In this document: positions 32,572-50,172 of the stretch, one piece after another
Layout of the letters: every line of letters begins with the position of its first letter
Numbering within the stretch: position 1 is the first letter of the stretch
Assembly: GCF_009295825.1 (NCBI RefSeq)
Contig: NZ_WHKF01000002.1
Location: 372,001 to 436,000 of the forward strand
DNA length: 64,000 nucleotides
DNA from: Marinifilum sp. N1E240
Lineage (GTDB): Bacteria; Bacteroidota; Bacteroidia; Bacteroidales; Marinifilaceae
Direction: 5' to 3'
The notes under the pieces: model-generated
The model's database searches: none
Seen by the model: the letters and a program-made list of their open reading frames with translations, nothing else
What the model was told of the DNA's origin: nothing
Translations under genes and position numbers: made by a program

Positions 32572-32578
32572 CTCAAAA

Positions 32579-34111
32579 ATGAAAAACATTATGAATAAAT
32601 ATATAAAAACATTATTCTTTGCTGCTTTGATAGGATTTACATCCTGCAGCGACGACTTTTTAACCGTGGAGCCTACCTCTTCGCAAGAAGCGGGAGGAGA
32701 TGCAACTGATGGTGCTATCTTATCTAACTTAGGGGCTGCTTATCAGATTTTACTATTCGATAGTTATGCTGATTTTCAGTACAACAGTGTAACGTTGATG
32801 TCAGATTTAATGTCTGATGATATTTATAAAGGAGGTGGATCTGCAGGAGACCAGCAGGTACTATATAATATGTCTCAGTATAATTTAAATGGTGATTTAA
32901 CTGCCAGCGGTCTTTGGAACATTTATTTTGCTGGTTTAAGCCGCTGTAATGGTGTGATTATAGCTTGTGAAAATGCAATTGGTGTCAATGAAGAAAGTTT
33001 GAATCAATATAAAGCTGAGGCACATTTTTTAAGAGCATATTATGTGCATTGGTTGTGGAAATTTTGGGGTAATATTCCATATTTTGAAGAAGAATTGGAA
33101 GCACCTTATTTCGCTCCTCAGTTAACTGCAGATCAGATTTATGCGGAGTTGATTGAAGATGTAGACTTTGCCATTGCTGGGGATAAGTTGCCATTGCAAA
33201 CAACTGCTTCTAATGACGGTAGAGCTACTAAAGCTGCCGCAATGATGCTAAAAGCTCGAATCGTGATGTACCAAAAAGATCAAAGTAAATATGCTGAGGT
33301 TTTGGCTGATATGGAAGCGATTTATAATAGTTCTGAATTCCAATTGGAAGATTATGCTTCTATTTGGGATAGAAGTGGTGAATTTGGTTCAGGATCTATA
33401 TTTGAAGCAAATCATCTAGCTGAAGGTAAAGATTGGGGTGCTGCATGGACAGGTTATGGAACCAATTTACCTACATTTATCTCTCCTAACGAACTTGGAG
33501 GAACAGATTTATTAAGTGGATCTACAGATTATCAGGGTGGATGGGGATTTGCTCCCGTACGTTCTGAAACACCAGGGATTTTCGAAGATGGAGATACAAG
33601 ATTGGCTGCCTCAGTTAATCAGTTCGAAGATGGTACTTACACTGCTCGTTTCCAGAACACAGGTTACTTTATGGCAAAATATGCTGCTCGTAAGGAGTAC
33701 AACGATGCACCATATACTGGGGATTTGAACTATGAGAATAACGTACGTATTTTCCGTTATGCTGAAACATTATTAAATGCTGCAGAGCTAATTGTTATTC
33801 ACGGACAAGCCGCTACTACTGGGCTTACTGCAGAAATTTGCTTAGATGCTGTTCGAGCCAGAGCTGGGGTAGCTTCTATTCCTGCAACAGCTGAGAATAT
33901 TAAGCTAGAGCGTAGAAGAGAGTTTATTGGAGAAGGAATGCGTTACTGGGATTTGGTACGATGGGGAGATACAAATGTATTAACTGAGAGTAATCCTGAC
34001 TTTTCGTCAGAAAGAACGTGGGATGAAACTAGAAAATACTTTCCAATTCCTCAGTCTGAGATCGATAAAACTTACGGTGAATACAAGTTGGTACAAAACT
34101 CAGGTTACTAA
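32579..34111 (+). CDS. susD: SusD-family surface glycan-binding lipoprotein
   Basis: 510 residues from ATG 32579; a longer in-frame start at 32459 overlaps susC and is not credible. The signal peptide ends in the lipobox GFTSC. Internal TPR-like segments and the conserved C-terminal stretch RRREFIGEGMRYWDLVRWG identify RagB/SusD. The protein forms the lid over the SusC barrel and binds the imported oligosaccharide. The 7-bp gap to susC is typical. Confidence 0.95.
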   Translation: MKNIMNKYIKTLFFAALIGFTSCSDDFLTVEPTSSQEAGGDATDGAILSNLGAAYQILLFDSYADFQYNSVTLMSDLMSDDIYKGGGSAGDQQVLYNMSQYNLNGDLTASGLWNIYFAGLSRCNGVIIACENAIGVNEESLNQYKAEAHFLRAYYVHWLWKFWGNIPYFEEELEAPYFAPQLTADQIYAELIEDVDFAIAGDKLPLQTTASNDGRATKAAAMMLKARIVMYQKDQSKYAEVLADMEAIYNSSEFQLEDYASIWDRSGEFGSGSIFEANHLAEGKDWGAAWTGYGTNLPTFISPNELGGTDLLSGSTDYQGGWGFAPVRSETPGIFEDGDTRLAASVNQFEDGTYTARFQNTGYFMAKYAARKEYNDAPYTGDLNYENNVRIFRYAETLLNAAELIVIHGQAATTGLTAEICLDAVRARAGVASIPATAENIKLERRREFIGEGMRYWDLVRWGDTNVLTESNPDFSSERTWDETRKYFPIPQSEIDKTYGEYKLVQNSGY

Positions 34112-34132: not shown

Positions 34133-35899
34133 ATGAAAAATATTATAAAATCAGGATTTGGAATTGCATTGGCAATGCTGATGATGTTGGTTGCCTGTGA
34201 TCCAAATGAATTTGATAAATCGGAATTAAATGTTGGTACAGCTCCAACTGCCGATGAAATGAGCTTTACAGTGACTCAAGGTGAGGATGCTTTTCACTAT
34301 AAACTGGAAAATTTAACTAACGTTTCGGGAGTTGCTACAGTGAAGTGGGATTTCGGAAATGGTTCTAGTGGAGAGGGAAATAATGTAATTGCATATTATC
34401 CTTTACCAGGAGATTATGAAATAACACTAACTATTTCGGCTACCGATGGAACTTCAGGGGTAAAAACAATGAGCTTGGAGCAAACCGAAACGGATTATGC
34501 ATTTCTGGATAGCCCAGTGTTGACAATGATTTCTGGTGGAGCTTCTGTAACAGAAGGAAAGACTTGGGTAGTTGATAGTTTGGCTTCGGCACATTATGGA
34601 ATTGGACCAGCAAGTGGAAATTGGCCGGAATGGTGGGCTGCATCTCCTCTGCAGAAAACGGGTTCAGGATCTTATGATGACGAATTTACATTTAAAATGG
34701 TTGATTTTATTTTTGACTATGTAAACAATGGAAATTCGTATGCAAAAGACTACCGTTTAGATGACCCTAATTATTCTAACCCTGTAGAAGTTGATGGTAC
34801 TGATGCAAAAGTTGATTTTACGCCAGCCGCTGCAAACTGGTCGTTTTCAGAAACAGATGGTACATATTACATTACACTTTCATCAGATAAACCTTCGTTT
34901 TTCGGATTTGATTACGGTGCAGTAAACAATGAATATAGAATTGAATCGATTACTGAAACTAACATTACCTTAAGTTGTATTGGCGGGGATGGTAACAGGT
35001 GGTATAATGGTTTAGTTTTAAAAGGATATGTGAAGCCAACTGTAACTTTTAATGTTGATGTTCAAGCAACAGGTGAAGAAAATACATGGGCTGTTAGTTT
35101 AACAGATCTTGTAATTCCTGATGGATTATTTGTAAATAGTTTCTCTGTTGATTTTGGTGACGGTAGTGAAGTTATGGAATCGGATGATGCGACAGCATCT
35201 CTTGAGAATACCTACATGAGAAAAGGTACTTACCCGATAAGCGTTACTGTTAAGGCATCTAATGAAGATTTAGCATCTACAAGTTCGATAACTGTTGACA
35301 ATCATCATTCTGCTTATGTACCATTTTTACTAGATATGATGGTAATGTATGTTGATAATAGTGAAGTTGAATTATCTCCAATTTTAGGACAAGATTGCGG
35401 TGTAAATCTTGTTGATAATCCAGATCGAATTTATCCGAATAAAGGTGCAAAAGTACTTCATTATTCTAAGGAAAATCAACAATGGGCAAATGCTTACATG
35501 CAATTACCAGCAGGTTACCGTTTCGATATCGGTAACAACAGTGTATTTAAAATTATGGTATTTGGGAAAGCTGGACAAGAAGTATTGTTGAAGCTTGAGA
35601 ATACTGATAAAGGTGGTAATGCGTGGCAAACTGGAACTTATGATGTGATTTATACCATCCAGGAAGATGATACCTGGGAAGTTGCAGAATTTGATTTTGC
35701 AGGAGTTGCAGCAGGATATGATTGGACTGGAGATCAGTTTACTTCTGATGTTACCACGGATACTCGATTTAGTCAAGATTTCTACAATGTTGTCAGAATC
35801 ATGCTAAATCCAGGTAACGGAGATGGTGCTCATGAATTTTATTTCGATGATTTAGCAGGTCCTCACGTAGAGGGAGTTAAGTCTGGAAGATCAAATTAA
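34133..35899 (+). CDS. PKD-domain surface glycan-binding lipoprotein (SusE/F-position)
   Basis: 588 residues. The signal ends with lipobox MLVACD. A PKD/Ig-like domain at about 60-105 (VKWDFGNGSSGEGN...YPLPGDYEITLTI) is followed by an unassigned beta-rich region, a second PKD-like domain near 325-375 (FSVDFGDGSEVMES...RKGTYPISVTV), and a C-terminal carbohydrate-module-like segment ending FYFDDLAGP. No catalytic motif is seen. Position after susD and before the GH16 genes is that of surface glycan-binding proteins, which help capture polymer at the cell surface. The ligand is presumably beta-glucan. Confidence 0.82.
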   Translation: MKNIIKSGFGIALAMLMMLVACDPNEFDKSELNVGTAPTADEMSFTVTQGEDAFHYKLENLTNVSGVATVKWDFGNGSSGEGNNVIAYYPLPGDYEITLTISATDGTSGVKTMSLEQTETDYAFLDSPVLTMISGGASVTEGKTWVVDSLASAHYGIGPASGNWPEWWAASPLQKTGSGSYDDEFTFKMVDFIFDYVNNGNSYAKDYRLDDPNYSNPVEVDGTDAKVDFTPAAANWSFSETDGTYYITLSSDKPSFFGFDYGAVNNEYRIESITETNITLSCIGGDGNRWYNGLVLKGYVKPTVTFNVDVQATGEENTWAVSLTDLVIPDGLFVNSFSVDFGDGSEVMESDDATASLENTYMRKGTYPISVTVKASNEDLASTSSITVDNHHSAYVPFLLDMMVMYVDNSEVELSPILGQDCGVNLVDNPDRIYPNKGAKVLHYSKENQQWANAYMQLPAGYRFDIGNNSVFKIMVFGKAGQEVLLKLENTDKGGNAWQTGTYDVIYTIQEDDTWEVAEFDFAGVAAGYDWTGDQFTSDVTTDTRFSQDFYNVVRIMLNPGNGDGAHEFYFDDLAGPHVEGVKSGRSN

Positions 35900-35976: not shown

Positions 35977-37071
35977 ATGATTCAGTATAAAAGTTATTTA
36001 ATGACACTTATTTTTGTTGTCTTCACAGTAATAAGTATGTCATCTTGCTCAAGTAGTAGCGATGAAGGTGAGGAATATACAGCAGGTTTTGAACTTGAAA
36101 TTGATCAGGACAATCCAAACTTGGTAAACCTAACGAATACATCAGAAGGAGAATATCTATACCTACAATGGAATTATGGAAATGGTAATTCTAGCTCAAA
36201 AGAAACTGATAAAACCTCGGTGAGAAGTATTCATTATCCACAAAAAGGCACTTATGAAATTACCTTAACGGTTTGGGGGTTAAGAAATAGTTTAACTGAT
36301 ACAAAAACGATTACCAAAACTGTAAGTATAGAAAATGATGATCCTGATTATGTACAAGGAGAAACCTTAGTTTGGTCTGATGAATTTAATGGTACAAGTA
36401 TTAGTTCTGATAATTGGACATTTGAAACAGGTGACGGAGGCTGGGGAAACCAAGAACTTCAAAATTATACCAATGGAGATAATGCAGAAATAGTTGATGG
36501 TAAACTAATTATTACAGTACGTAAAGTGAATGATAATAAGCTTGCCGGATCATATACTTCAACTAGAATGATTACCTGGGGTAAGCAAGAATTCACTTAT
36601 GGTAGAATGGAAATTCGTGCTAAATTACCTTCAGGAACCGGCGTTTGGCCAGCAATATGGATGCTTGGAGCTAATTTAGATCAAGTCGGATGGCCGGCAT
36701 GTGGTGAAATTGACATTATGGAATATGTAGGTTTTGAACCCAATGTAATACATGCTACAGTTCATACTCCATCCGGATATGCTGGAGATGGTAATGGTAA
36801 TTCAAAAACATTGGAAACTTGTGAGGAAGAATTTCATACTTATGGTATGATTTGGGATAAAGATAAAATTCAGTTTTACACAGATTCTCAAGAGAATGTT
36901 ACTCATACCTATTCACCAGCAAATAAAACGGCTAATAACTGGCCATTTAATAAACCACATTTTTTTATTCTAAACATTGCTGTAGGTGGTACCTGGGGAG
37001 GACTTCAGGGTATAGATAATTCAATTTTTCCTCAAACTATGGAGGTAGATTACCTTAGAGTTTATCAATAA
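35977..37071 (+). CDS. GH16 endo-beta-1,3-glucanase lipoprotein with N-terminal PKD domain
   Basis: 364 residues. Lipobox SMSSC, then a PKD-like domain (about 40-110), then a GH16 domain from about 128. The catalytic motif GEIDIMEYVG gives E244 (nucleophile), D246 and E249 (acid/base); the bulged EIDIME form is that of laminarinase-type GH16 enzymes, as are WPAIWMLG and the C-terminal PHFFILNIAVGG. It should cut beta-1,3-glucan at the cell surface. It is followed by a second GH16 gene 30 bp downstream. Confidence 0.92.
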   Translation: MIQYKSYLMTLIFVVFTVISMSSCSSSSDEGEEYTAGFELEIDQDNPNLVNLTNTSEGEYLYLQWNYGNGNSSSKETDKTSVRSIHYPQKGTYEITLTVWGLRNSLTDTKTITKTVSIENDDPDYVQGETLVWSDEFNGTSISSDNWTFETGDGGWGNQELQNYTNGDNAEIVDGKLIITVRKVNDNKLAGSYTSTRMITWGKQEFTYGRMEIRAKLPSGTGVWPAIWMLGANLDQVGWPACGEIDIMEYVGFEPNVIHATVHTPSGYAGDGNGNSKTLETCEEEFHTYGMIWDKDKIQFYTDSQENVTHTYSPANKTANNWPFNKPHFFILNIAVGGTWGGLQGIDNSIFPQTMEVDYLRVYQ

Positions 37072-37101: not shown

Positions 37102-37941
37102 GTGAATATTATGCTGCTAAAAAATATAAATCTATTAGTAGGTATCCTACTTCTTATATCTGCTTGTGATTCAAGGAAGGTAAATAAATTTATTCAAAAT
37201 AAGGAAAAGGAAGAGTATCATTTGGTTTGGTCGGATGAATTTGATTACACGGGCTTACCTGATTCGACCAAATGGACTTACGATACAGAAGGCAATGCTG
37301 ATGGATGGGGAAATAGGGAAGCCCAATATTATACAAAGGCAAAAAAGGAAAACGCCTGGGTTGAAAATGGTGTGCTAACTATTACTGCGCTAAAAGAGCA
37401 ATTTGGAGGAAAAGAATATACTTCAGCACGTTTGAATTCAAAAGCAAACTGGTTGCACGGACGAATTGAGGTAAATGCCAAACTTCCTAAGGGAAGAGGT
37501 ACTTGGTCTGCAATTTGGATGATGCCGAAGGATTGGACTTACAATGATGGAAACTGGCCTAATATTGGAGAAATCGATATTATGGAACATGTAGGACATA
37601 ATTTAGGAACCATTCATGCATCTGCTCATTCTAAAGATTACCAATGGCAAAAGAATACACAACAAACAAGTACCATTAAAATTGCTGGTGTTGATGAAAA
37701 ATTCCATTCCTACATGTTAGAATGGACACCAGAGTTGATGAAAGCTTATGTGGATAATCAGCTTTATTTCGAATATAAAAATGAAGGCTTGGGAAAATCA
37801 AAATGGCCATACATTAAACCATTCTATCTTATTCTAAACCTCGCGATAGGCGGTGCCTGGGGTAGCGGAGAAGGAATCGATGATAGTGTATTTCCTCAAA
37901 CAATGGAAATTGATTATGTAAGAATCTATCAAAAAAAATAA
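37102..37941 (+). CDS. GH16 beta-glucanase lipoprotein
   Basis: 279 residues: signal and lipobox LLISAC, short linker, then one GH16 domain. The catalytic motif GEIDIMEHVG places E157, D159 and E162. WSAIWMMPKDW and FYLILNLAIGGAWG match laminarinase-like GH16. Compared with the enzyme upstream it lacks the PKD domain and is probably a paralogue with different chain-length or linkage preference. It shares the operon with its neighbours; the sugar-porter gene starts 49 bp later. Confidence 0.92.
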   Translation: MNIMLLKNINLLVGILLLISACDSRKVNKFIQNKEKEEYHLVWSDEFDYTGLPDSTKWTYDTEGNADGWGNREAQYYTKAKKENAWVENGVLTITALKEQFGGKEYTSARLNSKANWLHGRIEVNAKLPKGRGTWSAIWMMPKDWTYNDGNWPNIGEIDIMEHVGHNLGTIHASAHSKDYQWQKNTQQTSTIKIAGVDEKFHSYMLEWTPELMKAYVDNQLYFEYKNEGLGKSKWPYIKPFYLILNLAIGGAWGSGEGIDDSVFPQTMEIDYVRIYQKK

Positions 37942-37990: not shown

Positions 37991-39547
37991 ATGAACCTAA
38001 AATATAGTGTCTTTGTATCTTTAATTGTTGCCTTAGGTGGTTTCCTTATGGGTTTCGATGCATCTGTAATATCAGGTGTTGTGAAGTTTATCGAACCGCA
38101 ATTTAATTTAACGAAAATTCAATTAGGATGGGCAGTTAGCTGCTTAACTCTTACCGCAACCCTGGCAATGTTATTGGCTGGACCATTGAGTGATAAATTC
38201 GGAAGAAGAACCATTTTAAAATACGCAGCTGCACTTTATTTTATATCCGCTATTGGATCGGCAATTGCACCAAGTTTTTGGTTTTTGGTCATAGCAAGAA
38301 TGATTGGTGGATTTGGTGTTGGTGCATCCTTGATTATCGCACCAATTTACATTGCTGAAATTTCCCCAGCCAAATTAAGAGGCACCATGGTTTCTTTTAA
38401 CCAGCTGAATATTGTTTTAGGTATTTCCATTGCATTTTTCACCAATTATTTGATTTTGCAGCTGGGAAAATCAAACGCTGAATGGATCAATTTATTACAG
38501 TTTAAAGCATACAATTGGCGATGGATGCTTGGCTTAGAAGCCATTCCGGCAATACTTTACTTTATTCTTTTGTTTTTTGTGCCGCGCAGTCCGCGTTGGC
38601 TGGCAATGAATGGAATGGATGATGAGGCTCTTGAGGTAATGAGTAAATCATTAGGTAATGATGAGGCAAAACTTCAGTTAAAATCTATCTCTCAAAGTAT
38701 AAATTCATCTCAAAAGGATGAAAAGATTTCAATTAAAGAATTATTCAAACCCTCTTTAAAATTGGTTCTTATTATTGGAGTTGTAATTGCAATTACTCAG
38801 CAAATAACGGGAATCAATTCTGTATTTTTTTATGCACCAATGATTTTTGAACAAACAGGTATCGGCACCGATGCTTCATTTTCTCAAGCAATATTAGTTG
38901 GTGTAATAAATTTAGTATTTACTCTCTTCGCCATTTGGTTAGTCGATCGAATTGGCAGAAAGCCTCTTCTAATTTTTGGCTTAACAGGAATAGCCATCTC
39001 AATGTTTATTCTCTCAACAGGATTTGGAAGAGCCACTTACCGGTTAAGTGAAAAAAGCATTCAGGAATGCATAGCATTTGCAAATACGAATGACTTGGAA
39101 GCAATGAAAAATATAGTCTTCCAAAGTGATTTAGAATTTAATAAAGCATTGGAAAATTCAATAGGGTCAAAAGCATTTAAAGAACACCAATCAGATTTCA
39201 TTTCGAAAGCAATTAGTATTAATCCATGGATGGTTTTGGTTGGTATTCTTGGTTTTGTAGCATCTTTTGCAATTTCCATTGGACCCGTTATGTGGGTTTT
39301 GTTTTCAGAACTTTTTCCGAATCAAATTCGGGGTTTAGCAATATCATTTGTTGGTTTAATTAATTCAGGAATTAGTTTTCTGGTTCAACTGGTTTTCCCT
39401 TGGGAACAGTTGAATTTTGGTAACGCAACAACATTTTTAATATATGGAATTTTTGGAGCATTAGGACTTGTGTTTGTCATTTTCATGTTACCGGAAACCA
39501 AAGGAAAATCTTTAGAAGAATTAGAACTTATTCTGGTAAAGGAATAA
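37991..39547 (+). CDS. Sugar-porter family MFS transporter (XylE/GLUT-like)
   Basis: 518 residues with twelve predicted membrane helices and sugar-porter signatures: GGFLMGFDASVISGV in helix 1, PLSDKFGRR between helices 2 and 3, RMIGGFGVGASLIIAPIYIAEISPAKLRG, VPRSPRWL at the end of the first half, the QQITGINSVFFYAP segment, and PETKGKSLEELE at the C-terminus. It should import a monosaccharide (probably glucose) or a short oligosaccharide by proton symport. A long insertion between helices 9 and 10 (about 345-405) is seen in Bacteroidota members. Confidence 0.92.
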   Translation: MNLKYSVFVSLIVALGGFLMGFDASVISGVVKFIEPQFNLTKIQLGWAVSCLTLTATLAMLLAGPLSDKFGRRTILKYAAALYFISAIGSAIAPSFWFLVIARMIGGFGVGASLIIAPIYIAEISPAKLRGTMVSFNQLNIVLGISIAFFTNYLILQLGKSNAEWINLLQFKAYNWRWMLGLEAIPAILYFILLFFVPRSPRWLAMNGMDDEALEVMSKSLGNDEAKLQLKSISQSINSSQKDEKISIKELFKPSLKLVLIIGVVIAITQQITGINSVFFYAPMIFEQTGIGTDASFSQAILVGVINLVFTLFAIWLVDRIGRKPLLIFGLTGIAISMFILSTGFGRATYRLSEKSIQECIAFANTNDLEAMKNIVFQSDLEFNKALENSIGSKAFKEHQSDFISKAISINPWMVLVGILGFVASFAISIGPVMWVLFSELFPNQIRGLAISFVGLINSGISFLVQLVFPWEQLNFGNATTFLIYGIFGALGLVFVIFMLPETKGKSLEELELILVKE

Positions 39548-39585: not shown

Positions 39586-42500
39586 ATGGTACAATCAGAA
39601 TTTTTAAAAGAAATAATTGAAGTAGAATCAATTAAGATTAAAATGAAGAAGAAAAACATTTATTTGGGAGACACGAATTTGAATTGCAGCGAGGCTGAAG
39701 TTGAGGGGAAGTTCGTAGAACTACATAATGAAAAGTTTTACAAGATCAGCAATTCTGATCAAATGTCAGACTTCTTTATGAGTATAGTTAGTGATTCGGA
39801 TCACTGGATGTTCATATCGAGCAATGGATCTTTATCTGCAGGAAGAAAGGATAGAAACAATGCATTGTTTCCATATTATACAGTTGACAAAATTCACGAT
39901 TTTCGTGATAAAACTGGTAGTAAAACCATAATGTTGGTTGAGAAAGGAGATAAAACATTGTTGTGGAAGCCATTCTCGAACGGACTAAGAAAAATATATA
40001 AGATTGAAAGAAACCTGTACAAAAGTATCTATGGTAACAAGATAATTTTTGAAGAGGTCAATTTCGATTTGGGGATGAGTTTTCAATACTCATGGAGCAA
40101 TACGGAGAAGTATGGTTTTGTAAAAACATCTCAGGTAAGCAATTTTGGAGAGGAATCGGTAAAGTTCGAAATTCTTGATGGATTGGAAAACATTCTACCA
40201 AGTGGTGTAGATTATGATTTTCAGAACGAATACAGCAATTTACTTGATGCATATAAGAAAAGTGAATTATTGGAAGAATCTGGATTGGGTTTGTACATGC
40301 TAAGTTCAATTCCTGTGGATAGAGCTGAACCAAGTGAATCTTTAAATGCAACAACCGTTTGGTCTTATGGATTAAATGGAAGTAAGATTTTACTATCAAC
40401 CAAACAAGTTAATAAGTTTAAAGAGGGACAGAATCTTTCAACTGAGATTGATGTAAGAGCTGCTAAAGGTGCATATCTTTTGCATAAAGAGTTGAATCTG
40501 GCAAAGGGTGAATCCAAAGAGTGGATGTTTGTAATTGAGTTGAATCAGGACAGTGTTGCTGTTGCCAATTTGAATGAATTCATTAAAACAGAAAAGCATA
40601 TTGCTTCAGCCTTAAAAGAAGATATTGAATTAGGGACTAAAAATCTGATTAAGATTGTTGCTGATGCTGATGGTTTGCAAATGGGAAATGATGATTTAAG
40701 CTATGCTCGTCATTTTTCAAATACCCTGTTCAATGTGATGCGCGGTGGAATTTTTAATGATAATTACCTTATTGATGTTGTTGATTTTAAGTTGTTTGTT
40801 CAGCAAACCAACAAACCATTGGCTAAGGAATTTGAACAATGGATTGAGAAGTTACCTGTGCATATCTCTTATACGGAATTGAGTGATCTTGCCAAGCAAA
40901 CCAATCATGCTGATTTAATCAGAATTTGCAGTGAGTATCTTCCTTTAACTTTCAGTCGAAGACATGGAGATCCAAGTCGTCCATGGAATCAGTTTGCTAT
41001 TGAAACTAAAAATGAAGATGGTTCGCCAAAATTAAATTATCAGGGAAACTGGCGTGATATTTTTCAAAATTGGGAAGCGCTGGCATTATCGTACCCTGAG
41101 TTTTTGGAAGGTATGATCAGTAAGTTTGTGAATGCTTCAACTGCTGATGGTTACAATCCCTACAGAATAACCCGAGAGGGAATCGATTGGGAATGTCCCG
41201 ATCCGCATGATCCTTGGGCTTATATCGGATATTGGGGTGATCATCAGATTATCTATTTGCAAAAATTCCTTGAGTTATCGAATGAATTTCATCCAGGTAA
41301 ACTGAACGATTTGTTGACAAAAGAGAATTTTGTGTATGCAAATGTGCCTTACAGAATTAAATCTTACCAGGATATTATTAAAAATCCTCAGGATACTATT
41401 GAATTTGATTATGAATTGAATGATCAGATTGTAAGTATGGTGAGTGAGATTGGTGCTGATGCCAGGTTGTTGAGAAAAGGGGATAATCTTTATCAGGTGA
41501 ATCTTACCGAAAAGATATTGGTAACACTTTTAACAAAGCTAAGCAATTTTATTCCTGAAGCAGGGATTTGGTTGAACACTCAACGACCAGAATGGAATGA
41601 TGCAAATAATGCTTTGGTTGGAAATGGTGTTTCAATGGTTACACTATGTTACCTAAGAAGATTCCTTCAATTTTGGTCAGAGAAATTCAATAATATTTCT
41701 GTTGATGAAATAAGCATTTCTGAGGAAGTAGTAACACTATTGGAGAGTATCCAGTCATTATTTGCAGAAAATGTTCAACTATTGGAAACTGGTTTTTCAG
41801 ATAAAAATAGACGTCATTTTGCTGATGTATTGGGAGAAGCTGGTACAAAATACAGAAATGGTATTTACGCTGAATCATTCACAGGTGTTAAAAGAACCAT
41901 TCGAGTAAATGAGCTGAAAGAGTTCGTCGATCTGGCATTGGATTATATGGATCAGTCGATAAGAGTAAATAAGCGTGAAGACGGTCTTTACCATGCTTAC
42001 AATTTGATTTCATTTGCAAATCAAGATATATCGATTCGTTACTTGTACGAAATGCTTGAAGGACAGGTGGCTGTATTAAGTTCTGGTCTTTTAAATGCTG
42101 AAGAGAGCTTGTCTGTGCTAAATAGCTTGAAAGGCAGTCAGATGTTCAGACAAGATCAATACAGTTATTTTCTATATCCTGATAGACAATTGCCTCGATT
42201 TACAGAAAAAAATAACATTCCTGAAGTACGAGTTAAAGAATCTGAACTTTTGACAAAGCTAATTCAGAATAATGACACAACAATTCTAGGAGTTGATCAG
42301 GCTGGAGGCTATCACTTTAATGGTTCGTTTAGAAATGCGGAAGTTTTAAAGAATGCTTTAGAGAATCTTGCTAATGCTGATTATAAGTCATTAGTTGATA
42401 AAGAAAAAGCTAAGGTGCTGGATATTTTCGAGGAGATGTTCGATCATCAATCTTTTACTGGTCGATCGGGTACTTTTTATGGTTTTGAAGGCTTAGGAAG

Positions 42501-43098
42501 TATTTATTGGCACATGGTTTCTAAACTATTACTTGCTGCACAAGAGAGTTATTTCCATGCAATTGAAGAAGGAGCTAATCCGATTACTCGTGGAAAAATA
42601 AAGGATCATTATTTTGAGATTAAAGCAGGAATTGGCTTGTACAAATCTCCTGAATTGTATGGTGCTTTTCCAACTGATGCCTACTCACATACACCATCAA
42701 CTGCTGGTGCACAGCAACCAGGTATGACAGGTCAGGTGAAAGAGGATTTCATTTCAAGAATTGGAGAATTGGGCGTTCATGTAAAAAATGGACAAATCGT
42801 TTTTTCAACATCCCTGTTGAATGATCTTGAATTACTTAATCAGGAAGATCAGTTTGCATACTTCGATGTGTTTGGCAATAAGCAACAAATAAAATTAGGC
42901 AAGGGACAATTGGCTTTTACCTTTTGTAAAGTGCCTGTAGTTTATTCTGTTTCCGATGAAAGTCAAATCTCTATTTCGTTTAAAAATGGAGAAACAAAAC
43001 TGATAAAATCCAATGCAATTGATCAGGAAATCAGTGCAAGGATCTTCAATAGAAACGGAGAAATTGATAGAATCGATTATTCAATCAGAAAAAAATAA
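39586..43098 (+). CDS. Large cytosolic glucan phosphorylase-like protein (GH94/GH149/GH161 clan)
   Basis: 1170 residues with no signal peptide. The start at 39586 is used; ATG 39643 (MKKKNIYLGDTN) is a good alternative. The N-terminal half is beta-rich, followed by an (alpha/alpha)6-type helical half. The segment around D534, EGIDWECPDPHDPW followed by GYWGDHQIIYL, resembles the catalytic region of large inverting beta-1,3-glucan phosphorylases; SFTGRSGTFYGFEGLGSIYWHM later is also characteristic. Such enzymes release glucose 1-phosphate from beta-1,3-glucan chains. Placement between a sugar transporter and GH17 genes of a laminarin-type locus fits. The exact family (GH149 or GH161 are best guesses) cannot be fixed by eye. 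Confidence 0.72.
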   Translation: MVQSEFLKEIIEVESIKIKMKKKNIYLGDTNLNCSEAEVEGKFVELHNEKFYKISNSDQMSDFFMSIVSDSDHWMFISSNGSLSAGRKDRNNALFPYYTVDKIHDFRDKTGSKTIMLVEKGDKTLLWKPFSNGLRKIYKIERNLYKSIYGNKIIFEEVNFDLGMSFQYSWSNTEKYGFVKTSQVSNFGEESVKFEILDGLENILPSGVDYDFQNEYSNLLDAYKKSELLEESGLGLYMLSSIPVDRAEPSESLNATTVWSYGLNGSKILLSTKQVNKFKEGQNLSTEIDVRAAKGAYLLHKELNLAKGESKEWMFVIELNQDSVAVANLNEFIKTEKHIASALKEDIELGTKNLIKIVADADGLQMGNDDLSYARHFSNTLFNVMRGGIFNDNYLIDVVDFKLFVQQTNKPLAKEFEQWIEKLPVHISYTELSDLAKQTNHADLIRICSEYLPLTFSRRHGDPSRPWNQFAIETKNEDGSPKLNYQGNWRDIFQNWEALALSYPEFLEGMISKFVNASTADGYNPYRITREGIDWECPDPHDPWAYIGYWGDHQIIYLQKFLELSNEFHPGKLNDLLTKENFVYANVPYRIKSYQDIIKNPQDTIEFDYELNDQIVSMVSEIGADARLLRKGDNLYQVNLTEKILVTLLTKLSNFIPEAGIWLNTQRPEWNDANNALVGNGVSMVTLCYLRRFLQFWSEKFNNISVDEISISEEVVTLLESIQSLFAENVQLLETGFSDKNRRHFADVLGEAGTKYRNGIYAESFTGVKRTIRVNELKEFVDLALDYMDQSIRVNKREDGLYHAYNLISFANQDISIRYLYEMLEGQVAVLSSGLLNAEESLSVLNSLKGSQMFRQDQYSYFLYPDRQLPRFTEKNNIPEVRVKESELLTKLIQNNDTTILGVDQAGGYHFNGSFRNAEVLKNALENLANADYKSLVDKEKAKVLDIFEEMFDHQSFTGRSGTFYGFEGLGSIYWHMVSKLLLAAQESYFHAIEEGANPITRGKIKDHYFEIKAGIGLYKSPELYGAFPTDAYSHTPSTAGAQQPGMTGQVKEDFISRIGELGVHVKNGQIVFSTSLLNDLELLNQEDQFAYFDVFGNKQQIKLGKGQLAFTFCKVPVVYSVSDESQISISFKNGETKLIKSNAIDQEISARIFNRNGEIDRIDYSIRKK

Positions 43099-43174: not shown

Positions 43175-44059
43175 ATGTCTGTACGAAGTGAATATCTCTT
43201 GTCTTTAGCAGGAGTCGACCTAAATGGTAAAAGCGAAGATGAATTGAGATCTATATATTATCAGTATCTGAATAGTGGAATGCATGGAATCTGTTTTAGT
43301 CCATATATGGATGAGCAAGAGCCTGGTGATCAGATTGGTGAGGGTCAAATTCGACGAAGAATGGAAATAATTAATCCACATACCAAATGGATTCGATCAT
43401 TTTCATGTACCGAAGGAAACGAATTGATACCGAAAATAGCTAAGGAGAATGGTTTAAAAACTTTGGTTGGAGCTTGGTTAGGAAAATACAAGAGTATTAA
43501 CGATAAAGAAATCGAAGGACTAATTGAAGTTGCAAAAGCCGGACATGCAGATATCGTGGCTGTTGGTAATGAAGTATTATATCGTGAGGATTTAAGTGAA
43601 GATGAATTGTTGGATTACATCTACAAGGTAAAGGAAGCTCTTCCTGGCATTCCTGTTGGTTATGTTGATGCTTATTATGAATTCGGAAATCGCCCTCGAA
43701 TAACTGAAGCATGCGATGTAATCCTCGCGAATTGCTATCCTTTTTGGGAAGGTTGTAGTCTTGAGCATTCCTATCTCTATATGAAAGATATGTATAATAG
43801 AGCATTGCGAGCTGGTAATGGGAAAAAAGTAATCATTACGGAAACTGGATGGCCGAATGTTGGTGAACCATTCCATGGTGCAGAGCCATCAGTAGAAAAT
43901 GCATTGAAATATTTTATTCAAACACAATCATGGTCAAAGGAAGAAGATATTGATATTTTCTATTTCTCTTCATTCGACGAAGGATGGAAAACTACTGATG
44001 AAGGAGATGTAGGTGCTTATTGGGGAATTTGGGATAAGAATGAGAAGTTGAAGTATTAA
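43175..44059 (+). CDS. GH17-like beta-1,3-glucanase, no export signal
   Basis: 294 residues, clan GH-A TIM barrel of the GH17 type. The acid/base is E133 in AVGNEVLYRED and the nucleophile E223 in IITETGWPNVGEP. The N-terminus (MSVRSEYLLSLAGVDL) is polar with no signal peptide or lipobox, so a cytosolic location is predicted, unusual for GH17. It opens a run of three GH17-like genes and sits after the phosphorylase. A role in trimming imported beta-1,3-oligosaccharides is inferred. Confidence 0.82.
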   Translation: MSVRSEYLLSLAGVDLNGKSEDELRSIYYQYLNSGMHGICFSPYMDEQEPGDQIGEGQIRRRMEIINPHTKWIRSFSCTEGNELIPKIAKENGLKTLVGAWLGKYKSINDKEIEGLIEVAKAGHADIVAVGNEVLYREDLSEDELLDYIYKVKEALPGIPVGYVDAYYEFGNRPRITEACDVILANCYPFWEGCSLEHSYLYMKDMYNRALRAGNGKKVIITETGWPNVGEPFHGAEPSVENALKYFIQTQSWSKEEDIDIFYFSSFDEGWKTTDEGDVGAYWGIWDKNEKLKY

Positions 44060-44105
44060 TCTTACGATTGATAGTAAGAAAAAGCTAGAAACCAATTGAA
44101 ATTTA

Positions 44106-45053
44106 ATGAAACTAGAAGATCAAATTAATATACAGGTTGACAATGCCATTTGCTATTCAGGATTTAGAGAAGGACAGAGTCCGCATACAGGAGTTTTTCC
44201 TACTTACGATCAGATAAAAGAAGATTTAACGATTCTTCAAGGTCATTGGAAATTTCTTCGTTTGTATGCTTGCGATCAGCAAACAGATACCATTTTAGAG
44301 GTAATAGAAAAAGAAGGTTTTGATTTTAAGGTAATGCTTGGAGCATATATTGGTGCCGAAATGAACAATTTCGGTTGTCCTTGGGGAGGTTCTTTTTCCG
44401 AAGAAGAATTGTTTGATAACAAAGAACATAACCTACAGGAAATATCAAAATTAATTCTTCTGGCAAATCGATATCCTGAGATTGTTTTTTCATTATCAGC
44501 AGGAAATGAAGCTACAGTTCACTGGACAGATCATTATGTGCCGGTAGAAAATGTGATTAATTACGTTCGAATTATTAAAAAGGCTTGCAGACAACCTGTT
44601 ACATTCTGTGAAAATTATGTGCCTTGGCTGGATAAACTAAAGGACTTGGTAGAAGAGGTTGATTTTATTTCCATTCATACCTATCCGGTTTGGGAGTATA
44701 AAAATATTCATGAAGCATTAGAATACACCAAGCAAAACTACTACAGTGTTGCAGACAGATATCCGCATAAACCTGTTGTGATTACTGAAGCTGGTTGGGC
44801 AACCAATTCAAATGGACGAGGAATTTGTCCTGGAAATGTAAGTCAGGATCTTCAGAAGATATACTATAACGATTTGGTGAACTGGAGTAAGGAAGAGGAG
44901 ATTCTCACTTTTGTTTTTGAAGCCTTTGATGAGCCATGGAAAGGATCGGCTGAACCATTGGAGCCTGAAAAACATTGGGGTTTGTTTACGGTTGATCGAA
45001 AACCAAAGAAAGTAACTCAAGAATTATTTAATAGCGTAATAACTCAATCTTAA
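44106..45053 (+). CDS. GH17-like beta-glucanase or transglycosylase, no export signal
   Basis: 315 residues. The motifs are NAICYSGFREGQSP at the start, FLRLYACDQQT, SAGNEATVHW with acid/base E135 and VITEAGWATNS with nucleophile E228, ending in EKHWGLFTVDRKPKK. No signal peptide is visible, so it is predicted cytosolic. It is closely similar to the lipoprotein encoded next, sharing YSGFR, EAFDEPWKG-type and KHWGLFTVDRKPKKV segments, so the two are tandem paralogues sorted to different compartments. Confidence 0.83.
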   Translation: MKLEDQINIQVDNAICYSGFREGQSPHTGVFPTYDQIKEDLTILQGHWKFLRLYACDQQTDTILEVIEKEGFDFKVMLGAYIGAEMNNFGCPWGGSFSEEELFDNKEHNLQEISKLILLANRYPEIVFSLSAGNEATVHWTDHYVPVENVINYVRIIKKACRQPVTFCENYVPWLDKLKDLVEEVDFISIHTYPVWEYKNIHEALEYTKQNYYSVADRYPHKPVVITEAGWATNSNGRGICPGNVSQDLQKIYYNDLVNWSKEEEILTFVFEAFDEPWKGSAEPLEPEKHWGLFTVDRKPKKVTQELFNSVITQS

Positions 45054-45064
45054 ATTTTTGAAAC

Positions 45065-46150
45065 ATGAAAAGCTCAAATCTTAAACATACACTGCTTACA
45101 TTTTTAGCAATCGCTTCAGTTGTATTTGTATCATGTAAGAATGAAAATAAAAAATCAGGAGAAGAGACAATTGTGAAGAAATCTGATAAAATTGAAATTA
45201 AACAAAACGAGAAAGACCTACTAAATGGGATGTCCAGAGCTGTTTGTTACTCTGGATTTAGAAGTGGTCAGCATCCCGATAGAGGAAATGGCGCAATAAA
45301 TCCGAGCGATGCGGAAATATTGGAAGATCTTCGAATCATTTCAAAAGATTCATTGTTCAATTTGATTCGCCTTTATGATTGTGGAGAAAACTCCGAAGCT
45401 GTTCTTAGGATTATTGAAGAACAAAAATTAGATATCAAGGTGATGCTAGGAATTTGGCTTAAGGCAGAATTAAGTGCTCACGAAACCTGTGCTTGGCTTA
45501 CAGAACCAATTGCACAGAATGTTTTAGATGAAAACAGACATTTAAATCACAAGGAAATCCAAAAAGGAATTCAACTGGCGAATAAATATTCTGAAATAGT
45601 GCTTGCTGTGAATGTGGGTAACGAGGCTTTGGTGGAATGGAACGACCATAAAGTGGATACCGATACTATTATCTCTTATGTGAAACAAGTACAGGCAGCT
45701 ATCAAACAACCGGTAACAGTTGCCGATAATTACGATTGGTGGGCTTTAAAAGGTCAAAAATTGGCAAAGGCAGTTGATTTTGTTTCCATTCATGTTTATC
45801 CGGTTTGGGAAGGGAGGGATATTGATGAAGCAATGTCTTATACCATCGAAAATGTTCAGAAAGTGCGCAATGCAATACCAGATAGCAAACTTGTAATTAC
45901 CGAAGCAGGATGGGCAACTGTAGCATCTGAATTTGGTGATAGAGCTAATGAAGAAAAGCAAGAGAAATATTACCATGAATTGATGAAATGGACGAAAGCA
46001 ATGAATATAACCACTTTCTTTTTCGAAGCTTTTGATGAGGATTGGAAAGGGGAAACCGCTAATCCTCTCGGAGCTGAAAAGCATTGGGGATTATTTACAG
46101 TGGACAGAAAACCAAAAAAGGTAATGCAAAATCTATTTCCAGAACTCTAG
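45065..46150 (+). CDS. GH17-like beta-glucanase lipoprotein
   Basis: 361 residues. Signal peptide and lipobox VFVSCK, a charged linker, then a GH17-like domain starting at about 55 (RAVCYSGFRSGQHPD). Acid/base E187 in NVGNEALVEW and nucleophile E280 in VITEAGWATVA. It is the exported paralogue of the preceding gene, starting 11 bp after its stop. It is likely to act on beta-glucan fragments in the periplasm or at the surface. Confidence 0.85.
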   Translation: MKSSNLKHTLLTFLAIASVVFVSCKNENKKSGEETIVKKSDKIEIKQNEKDLLNGMSRAVCYSGFRSGQHPDRGNGAINPSDAEILEDLRIISKDSLFNLIRLYDCGENSEAVLRIIEEQKLDIKVMLGIWLKAELSAHETCAWLTEPIAQNVLDENRHLNHKEIQKGIQLANKYSEIVLAVNVGNEALVEWNDHKVDTDTIISYVKQVQAAIKQPVTVADNYDWWALKGQKLAKAVDFVSIHVYPVWEGRDIDEAMSYTIENVQKVRNAIPDSKLVITEAGWATVASEFGDRANEEKQEKYYHELMKWTKAMNITTFFFEAFDEDWKGETANPLGAEKHWGLFTVDRKPKKVMQNLFPEL

Positions 46151-46183: not shown

Positions 46184-47617
46184 ATGACACATTATAAAAC
46201 GGCAAAGGAAGACATTGTCCCGTTTGGGCAAAAACTAGCATTTGGATCGGGACATTTGGCAAATCAGTTGTTTCCTGCTGCTCTGGGTGTGTTTATGGTT
46301 GTGTTGGTGATGTCCTTAAATATGAATCCAGTTTTGGCGGGTATTTTAGGAGCTCTTCCACGATTCTTAGATGCATTAACAGATCCAATTATGGGATTCA
46401 TTTCGGATAATACCAAATCGAAGTGGGGAAGAAGAAAGCCATATATTTTATTGGGAAGTGCTATAACTGGTGTTGCCTTTATGGTAATGTGGCAACTAAA
46501 CCCAGAAGATTCTCAAACCTATAATTTCGTCTACTTCCTAATTGTTTCTGTATTTTTCTACATCGGTTATACCATTTTTGCCACTCCTTTAATTGGTTTG
46601 GGTTACGAAATGACTTCCGATTACAATGAGCGTACCCGTTTGATGGCAGTATCTCAATGGATGGGGCAGGTTGCCTGGATGATTGCTCCTTGGTTTTGGG
46701 TGATCATATATGATCCATCAATTTTTGCATCGGCTCCCGAAGGAGCAAGAATTTTAGCGATTTGGGTAGGAGGAATTTGTATGGTGCTTGGAATTTTACC
46801 AGCCATTTTCAACAAAGAGATGATTGTTCCTGATAAGAGTAAAATGGCTGATTTAAGTATGAAGGATTTGGCCGTGAATGCTAAAGAATTTGTTAGAGGA
46901 ATTAAGCTGACTATTAAAAATAAGCAGTTTATGAAACTTTGTGGTTCTACTTTTTTCATATTTAATGGTTTTCAAACCATCGCGCAATTTGCGATGTTCA
47001 TTATTGTTTATTATTTATTTCAGGGCGATAAAGTTGCTGCAGGTTCCTGGCCAGCATGGTTTGGAACAATAAGTGCAATGGCTACAGCCTTTCTTGTTAT
47101 TCCTATTGTAACAAAATTGTCAGAAAGAGTGGGTAAGAAAAATGCTTTTGTAATAGCAACTTTTGTTTCCATTGTTGGATATGCATTAAAATGGTGGGGC
47201 TTCAATCCTGCTAATCCATGGTTAATGTTCATGCCAATTCCATTTTTGTCGTTCGGTATTGGTGGTTTATTCACATTAATGATGTCGATGACAGCCGATG
47301 TTTGCGATTTAGATGAATTGAACAATGGAGAAAGAAGAGAGGGAATGTTTGGAGCCGTTTACTGGTGGATGGTGAAGTTAGGAACCGCTTTGGCATTGCT
47401 TACTAGTGGAATTGTGTTGCAAATGGTTGGTTTTAACGAATCTGTAGATCAGCAAAGTGTTGAAACATTAACCAATTTGAGAATTGCAGATATCGTAATT
47501 CCTATAGTAACTGCATTAATGGCTATTCTACTAGTATGGAAATATGATATCACTGAAAGTAGAGCACTGGAAATTCGTGAAGCCTTAATCGCAAAAAGAG
47601 GAAGAGTAAAACATTAA
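46184..47617 (+). CDS. GPH-family sugar:cation symporter
   Basis: 477 residues, twelve helices. GPH hallmarks: FGSGHLANQLFPAALGVFM at helix 1, RFLDALTDPIMGFISDNTKSKWGRRKPYI between helices 2 and 3, and MTADVCDLDELNNGERREGMFGAVYWW in the second half. This family imports glycosides, often oligosaccharides, with Na+ or H+. It is 33 bp after the GH17 lipoprotein and 21 bp before the GH30 gene, so it probably carries beta-glucan oligosaccharides to the cytosolic enzymes of this locus. Confidence 0.93.
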   Translation: MTHYKTAKEDIVPFGQKLAFGSGHLANQLFPAALGVFMVVLVMSLNMNPVLAGILGALPRFLDALTDPIMGFISDNTKSKWGRRKPYILLGSAITGVAFMVMWQLNPEDSQTYNFVYFLIVSVFFYIGYTIFATPLIGLGYEMTSDYNERTRLMAVSQWMGQVAWMIAPWFWVIIYDPSIFASAPEGARILAIWVGGICMVLGILPAIFNKEMIVPDKSKMADLSMKDLAVNAKEFVRGIKLTIKNKQFMKLCGSTFFIFNGFQTIAQFAMFIIVYYLFQGDKVAAGSWPAWFGTISAMATAFLVIPIVTKLSERVGKKNAFVIATFVSIVGYALKWWGFNPANPWLMFMPIPFLSFGIGGLFTLMMSMTADVCDLDELNNGERREGMFGAVYWWMVKLGTALALLTSGIVLQMVGFNESVDQQSVETLTNLRIADIVIPIVTALMAILLVWKYDITESRALEIREALIAKRGRVKH

Positions 47618-47638
47618 AGAACTTTTTAATTGAAAATT

Positions 47639-49123
47639 ATGAAATCAAAATACATTATCGGTATTCTTTTAAGTCTTGTTGTTATGGCTTGTAATACAAA
47701 AGAAAAAAACTTGTTGGTTGATGTTTACGAAACATCTGCAAGTGGTAATAAATTAACAAAAATAACAGAATTTGAATCAGGAGATGAGTTTGTAAGCATT
47801 CAAATATTACCTGAGGAAAAATATCAGGAAATCATAGGTTTTGGAGGTTCATTTACCGAGTCATCGGCTTATTTGTTGAATCAAATGAGTAAAGAAAATA
47901 GGAAATTGATCTTGGATGCCTATTTCGCTGAAGAGGGCGCAAAATACTCACTAACCCGAACACATATTAACTCTTGTGACTTCTCGCTTAGCAATTATTC
48001 TTACGCTCCGGTTGAAGGGGATAAAGAATTAAAACACTTTTCTATCGATGAAGATCGTGATGATATCATTCCAATGATAAAAGAGGCTATGGAAGCATCT
48101 AAGGATGGCTTTAAAATACTTTCATCTCCATGGACAGCATCACCCTGGATGAAAGATAACAACAAGTATGTAGGTGGAAAATTGTTGCCAGAATACTATG
48201 ATACTTGGGCACTATTTTTCTCAAAATACATTCAGGAGTACAAAAAAGAAGGAATTGATATTTGGGGACTGACTGTAGAAAATGAGCCATTGGGAAATGG
48301 AAACAATTGGGAAAGTATGCATTTTTCTCCTGAGGAAATGGTAGAATTTGTGAGCAAACACATGGGACCAAAACTAAAGGAAGATGGTCATGATGTTAAG
48401 ATTTTGGGATATGATCAAAACAGGGATGAATTGGAAGAATGGGCTGATATCATGTACAAGGATGAGGAATCATCTAAATATTTTGATGGTATGGCAATTC
48501 ATTGGTATGCCAGTACATACGATTATATGCCTGAAGTTTTGCAATATACTTTCAAAAAGGCACCAAATAAACTGATGATTCAGTCTGAAGCTTGCGTTGA
48601 TGCAGAAGTTCCTCATTGGAATGATGATGCCTGGTACTGGAAAAAAGAGGCAACTGATTGGGGCTTTGATTGGGCTCCGGATGATCAAAAACATTTACAC
48701 CCTAAATATGTACCAGTATATCGTTATGCAAGAGATATTATTGGCTGCTTAAACAATTACGTACAAGCTTGGATTGACTGGAATATGGTATTGGATACTA
48801 AAGGCGGACCAAACTGGGCAAATAACTGGTGTTTGGCTCCTGTTATTGTCGACCCTGAAAAAGATGAGGTGTATTTTACGCCAATGTACTACACTTTAGC
48901 TCATTTTAGCAAGTACATTCGTCCTGACGCTGTTCGTATTGGTTTTAAGATATCTGATAAAGATGTAATGATGACAGCAGCAAAAAATCCTGATGGTACC
49001 ATAGCTATTGTGATTTTAAATATGAATGAGAAAACAAAGAATTTAGAAATTTCATTAGGCGATCGTTCGGTTAAATTTCAGATTAATGCACAAGCAATTC
49101 AAACTGTGATTGTTCCAGCTTAA
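47639..49123 (+). CDS. GH30 beta-glucosidase or beta-1,6-glucanase lipoprotein
   Basis: 494 residues from ATG 47639 (an in-frame TTG at 47630 adds three). Lipobox VVMAC. The GH30 pattern is clear: IIGFGGSFTESSAYLLNQ, LTRTHINSCDFSLSNYSY, PWTASPWMK, acid/base E216 in VENEPLGNG and nucleophile E317 in MIQSEACVD, then NYVQAWIDWNMVLD. In a laminarin-type locus the expected job is removal of beta-1,6-linked glucose branches (GH30 subfamilies 1 and 3 include such enzymes). The C-terminal beta-sandwich is present. Confidence 0.9.
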   Translation: MKSKYIIGILLSLVVMACNTKEKNLLVDVYETSASGNKLTKITEFESGDEFVSIQILPEEKYQEIIGFGGSFTESSAYLLNQMSKENRKLILDAYFAEEGAKYSLTRTHINSCDFSLSNYSYAPVEGDKELKHFSIDEDRDDIIPMIKEAMEASKDGFKILSSPWTASPWMKDNNKYVGGKLLPEYYDTWALFFSKYIQEYKKEGIDIWGLTVENEPLGNGNNWESMHFSPEEMVEFVSKHMGPKLKEDGHDVKILGYDQNRDELEEWADIMYKDEESSKYFDGMAIHWYASTYDYMPEVLQYTFKKAPNKLMIQSEACVDAEVPHWNDDAWYWKKEATDWGFDWAPDDQKHLHPKYVPVYRYARDIIGCLNNYVQAWIDWNMVLDTKGGPNWANNWCLAPVIVDPEKDEVYFTPMYYTLAHFSKYIRPDAVRIGFKISDKDVMMTAAKNPDGTIAIVILNMNEKTKNLEISLGDRSVKFQINAQAIQTVIVPA

Positions 49124-49158: not shown

Positions 49159-50172
49159 ATGATTAAAAATATTGTGTTGATTTTTACGCTGAGTATACTG
49201 CTCATTTCATGTAAACAAGCTAATACAGATGCCATTTCTATTAATGGACGGGATATTTTAGTAAACGATTCTGTTTATACAATTAGGGGGATATGTTATC
49301 ATCCTGTGCCAAAAGGGAGCGATCAAAGAAGTTTTGATAATTTGAAGGAAGATTTGGCTTTAATGAAAGAGGCAGGAATCAATACGATTCGTGTGTATGA
49401 ACCAATTACAGAGCTTTCTGTTCTTGATAAAATACATGAATCTGGTTTGAAAGTGATCATTGGCTTTGGCTACAATCAGGGAGGAGAGAATGATATTCTA
49501 TCCGGAACTTTTATCGATTACGTAAATGCATTCAAGAACCACGAGGCAATTTTGATGTGGGAATTGGGCAATGAATACAATTATCATCCAGAGTGGTTTC
49601 AGGGAGATATGAAAAATTGGTACACAGCTATGAATAATGCGGCAAAACTAATTCATGAGCAAGATCCATTACATCCTGTTACAACAGCACATGGAGAATT
49701 GCCAGATGCTTTGGCTTTAAGCATGTGCCCTAATATTGATGTTTGGGGAATGAATGTGTATCGCTGGGACAATCCGGAAGAGATATTTTCACAGTGGGCT
49801 GCTGTAAGTGATAAGCCGATGTATTTATCGGAGGCTGGCGCAGACAGTTATATGACCATCGAAAAAAGTGGTTACAGCAAAGGCGCAAACGAGTTGGCTC
49901 AAGCCGATGCTACAACTAATATTTTAGATGCCACATTTCGAAATCAGGAAATTTGTTCGGGTGTAACTCTTTTTGCTTTTGTAGATGAATTGTGGAAAGC
50001 AGGTAATAATGACGTTTTAGATACAGGTGGATGGGCTCCAAATAGCAGTGGCGTTCCTTACGATGGAGCTCCTAATGAAGAGTATTGGGGAATTGTAGAT
50101 ATAGATCGGAACAAGAAAAAGGCTTTTCAGATCGTCAAAGAGAAGTACACCAATTTATCGAAGTCAAATTAG
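49159..50172 (+). CDS. Clan GH-A glycoside hydrolase lipoprotein (GH2/GH72-like barrel)
   Basis: 337 residues. Lipobox LLISCK, then a single TIM barrel: RGICYHPVPKGSDQRSF, INTIRVYEPITELSVLDK, acid/base E139 in WELGNEYNYHPEW and nucleophile E225 in YLSEAGADSY. The first barrel strands recall GH72/GH2 catalytic domains, but I cannot assign a family with confidence. It has no accessory domains. Position between GH30 and the mutarotase-like gene suggests an exo-acting or transglycosylating enzyme on beta-glucan fragments in the periplasm. Confidence 0.75.
   Translation: MIKNIVLIFTLSILLISCKQANTDAISINGRDILVNDSVYTIRGICYHPVPKGSDQRSFDNLKEDLALMKEAGINTIRVYEPITELSVLDKIHESGLKVIIGFGYNQGGENDILSGTFIDYVNAFKNHEAILMWELGNEYNYHPEWFQGDMKNWYTAMNNAAKLIHEQDPLHPVTTAHGELPDALALSMCPNIDVWGMNVYRWDNPEEIFSQWAAVSDKPMYLSEAGADSYMTIEKSGYSKGANELAQADATTNILDATFRNQEICSGVTLFAFVDELWKAGNNDVLDTGGWAPNSSGVPYDGAPNEEYWGIVDIDRNKKKAFQIVKEKYTNLSKSN

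Follow-up and report, generated by a model that had tools for sequence, protein, structure and literature searches.

The window analysed here is a stretch of 64,000 nucleotides from Marinifilum sp. N1E240 (contig NZ_WHKF01000002.1, positions 372,001 to 436,000, forward strand), and the gene in question is an open reading frame (ORF) that a first-pass annotation, made from the letters alone, had described as a 1170-residue phosphorylase-like enzyme of uncertain family. A single open frame runs from 39586 to 43098 on the forward strand, with 1170 codons counted from the first ATG. The frame is kept in relatives and is therefore coding, so that on this sequence evidence the ORF is a real gene. 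Its product is most probably a beta-1,3-glucan phosphorylase (laminaridextrin phosphorylase) of glycoside hydrolase (GH) family GH149, in a Bacteroidales/Marinifilaceae branch, a reading to which we give a probability of about 0.95 based on sequence comparison and a structural model. The gene and the features within it are listed below. The reference is the GH149 enzyme Pro_7066 (structures 6HQ6 and 6HQ8), and residue numbers count from the likely start at ORF Met20 (1151 residues) unless marked ORF.

39586..39642 (+): 19-codon upstream extension, probably untranslated (14 of 18 relatives have no upstream start codon)
39643..43098 (+): predicted GH149 beta-1,3-glucan phosphorylase, 1151 residues from the likely start (NF058639, 1732 bits; 6HQ6, 1281 bits; start from relatives; model Z 53.8 to 6HQ8)
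40753..40929 (+): region matching the Pro_7066 extra domain Dom1 (approximate; 15/59 identical, gapless)
41053..41058 (+): RD motif, R471 and D472, sugar-1-phosphate recognition (aligned to Pro_7066 R470 and D471)
41185..41187 (+): ORF D534 (= D515), conserved, not the published catalytic acid (alignment)
41593..41601 (+): WND motif 651-653 with the catalytic acid D653 (ORF D672), aligned to Pro_7066 W651, N652 and D653 (92/92 rows)
42193..42450 (+): region matching the Pro_7066 extra domain Dom2 (approximate; 39/87 identical, one gap)
42487..42513 (+): E949 to H957, corresponding to Pro_7066 E951 and H959 (alignment; 92/92 rows)

The family assignment is carried by profile and pairwise scores. 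The equivalog model NF058639 ('1,3-beta-D-glucan phosphorylase, GH149 family') matched with a score of 1732 bits, where the cut-off is 1150, over model positions 2-1133 of 1134, and was the sole NCBIfam match of the phosphorylase at E up to 0.001; at the same threshold no Pfam family matched, GH94 included. In a search against the sequences of solved structures, the Pro_7066 chain 6HQ6 scored 1281 bits; the pairwise alignment with Pro_7066 has 584 of 1128 residues identical (52%). The next phosphorylase chains were 9QQK (GH161A) at 38.3 bits and 9H8V at 37.9 bits, and the other five of the eight matches at E up to 1 were bromodomain chains. The 1039-residue 9H8V was named a cellobiose phosphorylase by its depositors and scores like GH161 (38 bits). 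The genome holds one GH149, and the GH94 Pfam model PF17167 matched only on contigs C32 (strongly) and C63 (weakly), not on C21, the window's contig.

The predicted fold agreed with the scores. The AlphaFold model had a mean predicted local distance difference test (pLDDT) of 88.4 and a predicted template-modelling score (pTM) of 0.88, and superposed on 6HQ8 over 1121 residues at 2.5 A with a template-modelling (TM) score of 0.94 and a Z score of 53.8. Both extra GH149 domains, Dom1 and Dom2, were present by alignment. Next in the fold ranking were the GH161 phosphorylases 9GY9 and 9QQK (Z 33.5 and 31.6), followed by the GH94 laminaribiose phosphorylase PsLBP (6GGY, 6GH3; Z 28.4, 13% identity). 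The protein shares the clan GH-Q fold with all of these and, by prediction, beta-1,3 phosphorolysis with the GH161 enzymes; PsLBP, in contrast, is described as disaccharide-specific and as having neither Dom1 nor Dom2 (PMC6771811). The model was built from a 68-sequence alignment (60 of 79 loci, seven earlier relatives and the window protein); an earlier 13-sequence alignment had given a poor model (pLDDT 68.5, TM about 0.5 to 6HQ6).

The relatives came from named bacterial genomes, the best 80 of at least 570 matches being taken as loci. One of these, L035, is cut at a contig end and was excluded from the tree, from the 93-row alignment and from the candidates for the model alignment, so that 79 loci remained. 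The active-site residues described for Pro_7066 are R470, D471, W651, N652, D653, E951 and H959 (PMC6771811), and all seven were kept in the pairwise alignment as R471, D472, W651, N652, D653, E949 and H957. They were invariant in 92 of 92 aligned GH149 rows, the query included and Pro_7066 set aside. The first-pass annotation had based its guess on the region of ORF D534 and a later TGRSGTFYGFEGLGS segment. The segment indeed lies in the ORF and holds E949, the counterpart of Pro_7066 E951, which together with R470 binds bicine, thought to be a sugar mimic (PMC6771811), and Asp was found at the D534 position in 89 of the same 92 rows; the published catalytic acid, however, corresponds to D653 (ORF D672). 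The broader view of a large inverting beta-glucan phosphorylase, which was to be given up if no clan GH-Q model matched, was borne out by clan GH-Q matches in profile (NF058639), pairwise search (6HQ6) and fold, and the stated uncertainty between GH94, GH149 and GH161 gives way to GH149 by the same three comparisons.

A quick maximum-likelihood tree built from 93 GH149 rows placed the query in a 12-row branch (support 99) together with ten further rows of its own bacterial family and a named Marinifilaceae record. This branch was nested in a larger one of Bacteroidales and other Bacteroidota records, and Pro_7066 stood among Flavobacteriaceae. The tree comprised GH149 rows only, with EgP1, GH94 and GH161 absent, and the separation between families rests on the scores.

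The reported length of 1170 residues probably results from a misplaced start codon. The motif MKK[NKS][NS]IYLG was found at the equivalent of ORF Met20 in 18 relatives from the query's bacterial family, 14 of which have no ATG, GTG or TTG ahead of this position within the open frame. The true start is hence likely to be ORF Met20, at window position 39643, giving a protein of 1151 residues; we regard it as likely rather than proven because four of the 18 relatives (L005, L006, L010, L016) do have an upstream start codon. The open frame of 1170 codons stands as first described, and the protein is probably shorter. The domains of Pro_7066 are described up to residue 1156 (PMC6771811), and the N-terminus is shared with the 18 relatives. 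Length and N-terminus thus give no sign of the proposed subgroup, and the start-codon evidence led to the rejection of a subgroup defined in that way. No signal sequence was seen on the protein by eye.

The phosphorylase gene lies within a cluster of genes on the same strand:

26205..29120 (+): regulator with propeller repeats, a Y_Y_Y domain and a weak LuxR-type C-terminus (Pfam)
29437..32571 (+): SusC/RagA outer-membrane transporter (TIGR04056, 925 bits)
32459..34111 (+): SusD-like protein (Pfam SusD_RagB); the ORF start overlaps SusC and the true start is probably later
34133..35899 (+): PKD-domain protein (Pfam PKD_4), probably binding glycans at the surface; lipoprotein-like N-terminus (by eye)
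35977..37071 (+): GH16 with PKD domain (Pfam), lipoprotein-like N-terminus (by eye)
37102..37941 (+): GH16 (Pfam), lipoprotein-like N-terminus (by eye)
37991..39547 (+): sugar-porter MFS transporter (TIGR00879, 366 bits, above cut-off)
43175..44059 (+): GH17a, a GH17 without signal sequence, predicted beta-1,3-glucanosyltransglycosylase like MlGH17B (4WTP, 116 bits; E133, Y136, W191, E192)
44106..45053 (+): GH17b, second GH17 without signal sequence (Pfam GH17 barely above cut-off; 6FCG, 112 bits)
45065..46150 (+): GH17c, exported GH17 with a lipoprotein-like N-terminus (Pfam GH17; 6FCG, 107 bits)
46184..47617 (+): GPH-type MFS sugar symporter (Pfam MFS_2)
47630..49123 (+): GH30 with a lipoprotein-like N-terminus; closest solved relatives are glucosylceramidases (Pfam GH30; 3KE0, 273 bits vs 5NGK, 197 bits)
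49159..50172 (+): GH2-barrel-like/GH158-like protein with a lipoprotein-like N-terminus (Pfam GH2_C; 9ORO GH158, 36 bits)

Some of the signal-sequence labels come from a simple in-house rule rather than SignalP, and N-termini were otherwise judged by eye. The locus is a polysaccharide utilization locus (PUL) for the algal glucan laminarin, of an already published type: GH149 genes have been described in Bacteroidota PULs together with GH16, GH17 and GH30 (PMC5827456, PMC13188888, PMC6246565), and laminarin PULs have been predicted for Marinilabiliales, an order treated together with Marinifilaceae (PMC12325347). As in the Muricauda and Formosa laminarin PULs, a single cluster combines GH16, GH149, an exported GH17, GH30, an MFS transporter and a second GH17. 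It differs from those as described in that two GH17 genes without signal sequence directly follow GH149, the GPH symporter is not fused to a GH17, and the N-terminus of the GH30 looks lipoprotein-like by eye, in contrast to the predicted cytosolic location of the Muricauda GH30 (PMC13188888, PMC6246565). Both the enzyme, an ordinary GH149, and its laminarin PUL setting are thus of known kinds, and the finding adds a member.

Beyond the three GH17 genes of the locus, none was found elsewhere in the genome. The genome's five GH3 matches all fall on C32 and none on the window's contig, and an Rfam search of 25000-55700 at gathering scores returned nothing. On C32, at about 100,900-112,200, a GH94, a second GH30 and two GH3 genes lie close together, perhaps as another beta-glucan locus. 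Downstream in the window, 50191-51150 (+) encodes an exported 319-residue protein that matched neither Pfam (E up to 0.1) nor NCBIfam and that, by eye, resembles a mutarotase-like sandwich. A relative lies near GH149 in locus L030, and tblastn found the protein in three of the 80 loci.

Taken together, the families and N-termini suggest a route for laminarin breakdown. Outside the cytoplasm, the GH16 enzymes, the exported GH17c and GH30 would cut and debranch laminarin, and the resulting beta-1,3-oligosaccharides would be imported by the GPH or the sugar-porter symporter. In the cytosol, GH149 would then use phosphate to take one glucose at a time off the non-reducing end, with D653 as the general acid and inversion of the anomeric centre, releasing alpha-glucose 1-phosphate and lastly glucose from laminaribiose. 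The linkage preference is predicted to be beta-1,3. With the GH-Q family working in this laminarin locus settled as GH149, most glucose units are therefore predicted to enter metabolism as glucose 1-phosphate, with a degree of polymerization (DP) of 2 as the lower limit. Entry as glucose 1-phosphate spares one ATP per glucose unit. Stepwise phosphorolysis of beta-1,3-gluco-oligosaccharides of DP2 and longer is predicted by analogy with the two characterised GH149 enzymes, which are reported to act on beta-1,3-oligosaccharides from a minimum of DP2, taking G3 down to glucose; the GH161 enzyme PapP, by contrast, requires DP3 or longer (PMC6484121).

The gene directly after GH149 may bear on how the cytosolic step is organised. 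GH17a has 294 residues and no signal sequence by eye; its nearest solved structure is the glucanosyltransferase 4WTP (116 bits), and it carries the catalytic Glu pair E133 and E223 as well as Y136, W191 and E192. The transglycosylase MlGH17B is likewise described as lacking a signal peptide and as having E133, Y136, W191 and E192 (PMC11005184), the same residues at the same numbers, and GH17a is thus predicted to be a beta-1,3-glucanosyltransglycosylase of the MlGH17B type. Among GH17 ORFs near GH149 in loci L026-L105 (one long GH17 ORF of 146 was left out of the residue table), the Tyr-Trp-Glu set was present in 51 of the 52 free GH17a genes, which have no signal sequence, and in GH17a domains fused to an MFS transporter Leu or Met replaced the Tyr in 12 of 14. 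Counted by ORFs, 64 of the 80 loci had a GH17 (66 by raw tblastn); a free GH17a was present in 47 and a fused one in 14, always alongside a free one. In the 46 loci whose flanks each extend for at least 9 kb, these numbers were 36, 32 and 13. In eight genomes with GH149 on another contig (G144, G179, G268, G372, G406, G423, G476, G481) a second GH17 adjoined GH17a, which suggests a two-gene GH17 unit like 43175-45053. In genome G006 (C1:2856587-2856850) a TAG stop was observed inside the reading frame of a GH17 match.

It could be that GH149 and the adjacent cytosolic GH17a form one module that would parallel, for beta-1,3 chains, the pairing of maltodextrin phosphorylase and amylomaltase; in it, GH17a would reshuffle imported oligosaccharides for phosphorolysis by GH149. 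Besides the MlGH17B-type residues, co-occurrence speaks for such a module. Among the 396 genomes of a class sample, 37 carried GH149 (one below cut-off, a fragment). GH17a was found at E up to 1e-15 in 26, every one of which belonged to the 37 and none to the other 359. In 17 of these 26 genomes the two genes shared a contig, no more than 9 kb apart, and in nine they were on different contigs, some of which may be assembly breaks. A second sample covered 96 genomes from the same family and order. In it, 23 genomes had GH149 and 19 had GH17, again all within the 23; those with GH149 and no GH17 were G051, where the GH149 is a fragment at a contig end, and G057, G087 and G090, which belong to other families. 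The tie is, however, not specific. The query with the exported GH17 gave matches in 29 genomes, and close GH30 relatives, scoring at least 588 bits, occurred in 26, all within the same 37, and since these two controls show the same pattern, the tie is to the whole laminarin gene set rather than to GH17a alone and is explained by a shared laminarin lifestyle. Coupling specific to GH149 and GH17a is thus unproven. In addition, 11 of the 37 GH149 genomes had no GH17a, and the counts are not independent as the genomes are related. MlGH17B is moreover reported to make beta-1,6 links and to have very low activity below DP5, properties that would impede phosphorolysis instead of aiding it, and a storage role has been suggested for it by its authors (PMC13188888). 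Its beta-1,6 products argue against a simple amylomaltase-like role for GH17a. We consider the module unlikely on balance. In the literature on cytoplasmic GH149 and GH17 enzymes, as far as examined, no proposal of a coupled module was found.

A related idea, which we hold to be quite improbable, is that the two enzymes share one cytosolic beta-1,3-glucan pool, with GH17a lengthening and branching imported chains and GH149 adding or removing glucose via glucose 1-phosphate. If true, marine Bacteroidota would have a beta-1,3 analogue of maltodextrin or glycogen metabolism, with its phosphorylase and transferase or branching enzyme, and the pool might serve as a transient intracellular store.

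Returning to the assignment as an ordinary GH149 laminaridextrin phosphorylase, several points weigh against it or would fit a functionally distinct GH149 subgroup with altered chain length or linkage. Only three of the eight residues of the Pro_7066 surface oligosaccharide site are identical (K831, Y841, E994). Two changes are conservative (Y993 to F, E990 to D), and E838, E982 and R1062 (Pro_7066 numbering) are altered, the last of them to Asn in all 12 rows from the query's own bacterial family. The Marinifilaceae/Bacteroidales branch also stands apart from that of Pro_7066. Furthermore, the Pro_7066 structure is described as having no oligosaccharide in the active site, which leaves the acceptor-binding residues undefined (PMC6771811), and chain-length preference is for that reason unreadable from the sequence. 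EgP1 and Pro_7066 are reported to differ in chain-length kinetics at 45% identity (PMC5827456), and 52% identity therefore does not fix this preference either. On the other hand, the catalytic residues, both extra domains and the fold are all retained, length and N-terminus are ordinary, and the PUL content is the usual laminarin set, which makes a distinct subgroup very unlikely. Membership in GH161 or GH94, with their other chain-length rules (DP3 or longer in GH161, DP2 only for the GH94 laminaribiose phosphorylase), is negligibly probable, since these families share clan and mechanism with GH149 and follow it in the fold ranking but fall far behind in bit score (38 vs 1281 for GH161) and Z score (33.5 and 28.4 vs 53.8), and the protein itself has no Pfam match, the GH94 model hitting C32 and C63 and never C21.

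Two further genes of the window were recorded. A PfkB-type kinase at 51831-52622 (+), nearest to fructoselysine 6-kinase and below the cut-off for that family, is flanked by a GNAT gene and a second GPH symporter and perhaps belongs to a separate unit. At 4611-7094 (-), a fusion protein combines pyridine-nucleotide disulfide reductase, rhodanese, TusA and DsrE-like domains.

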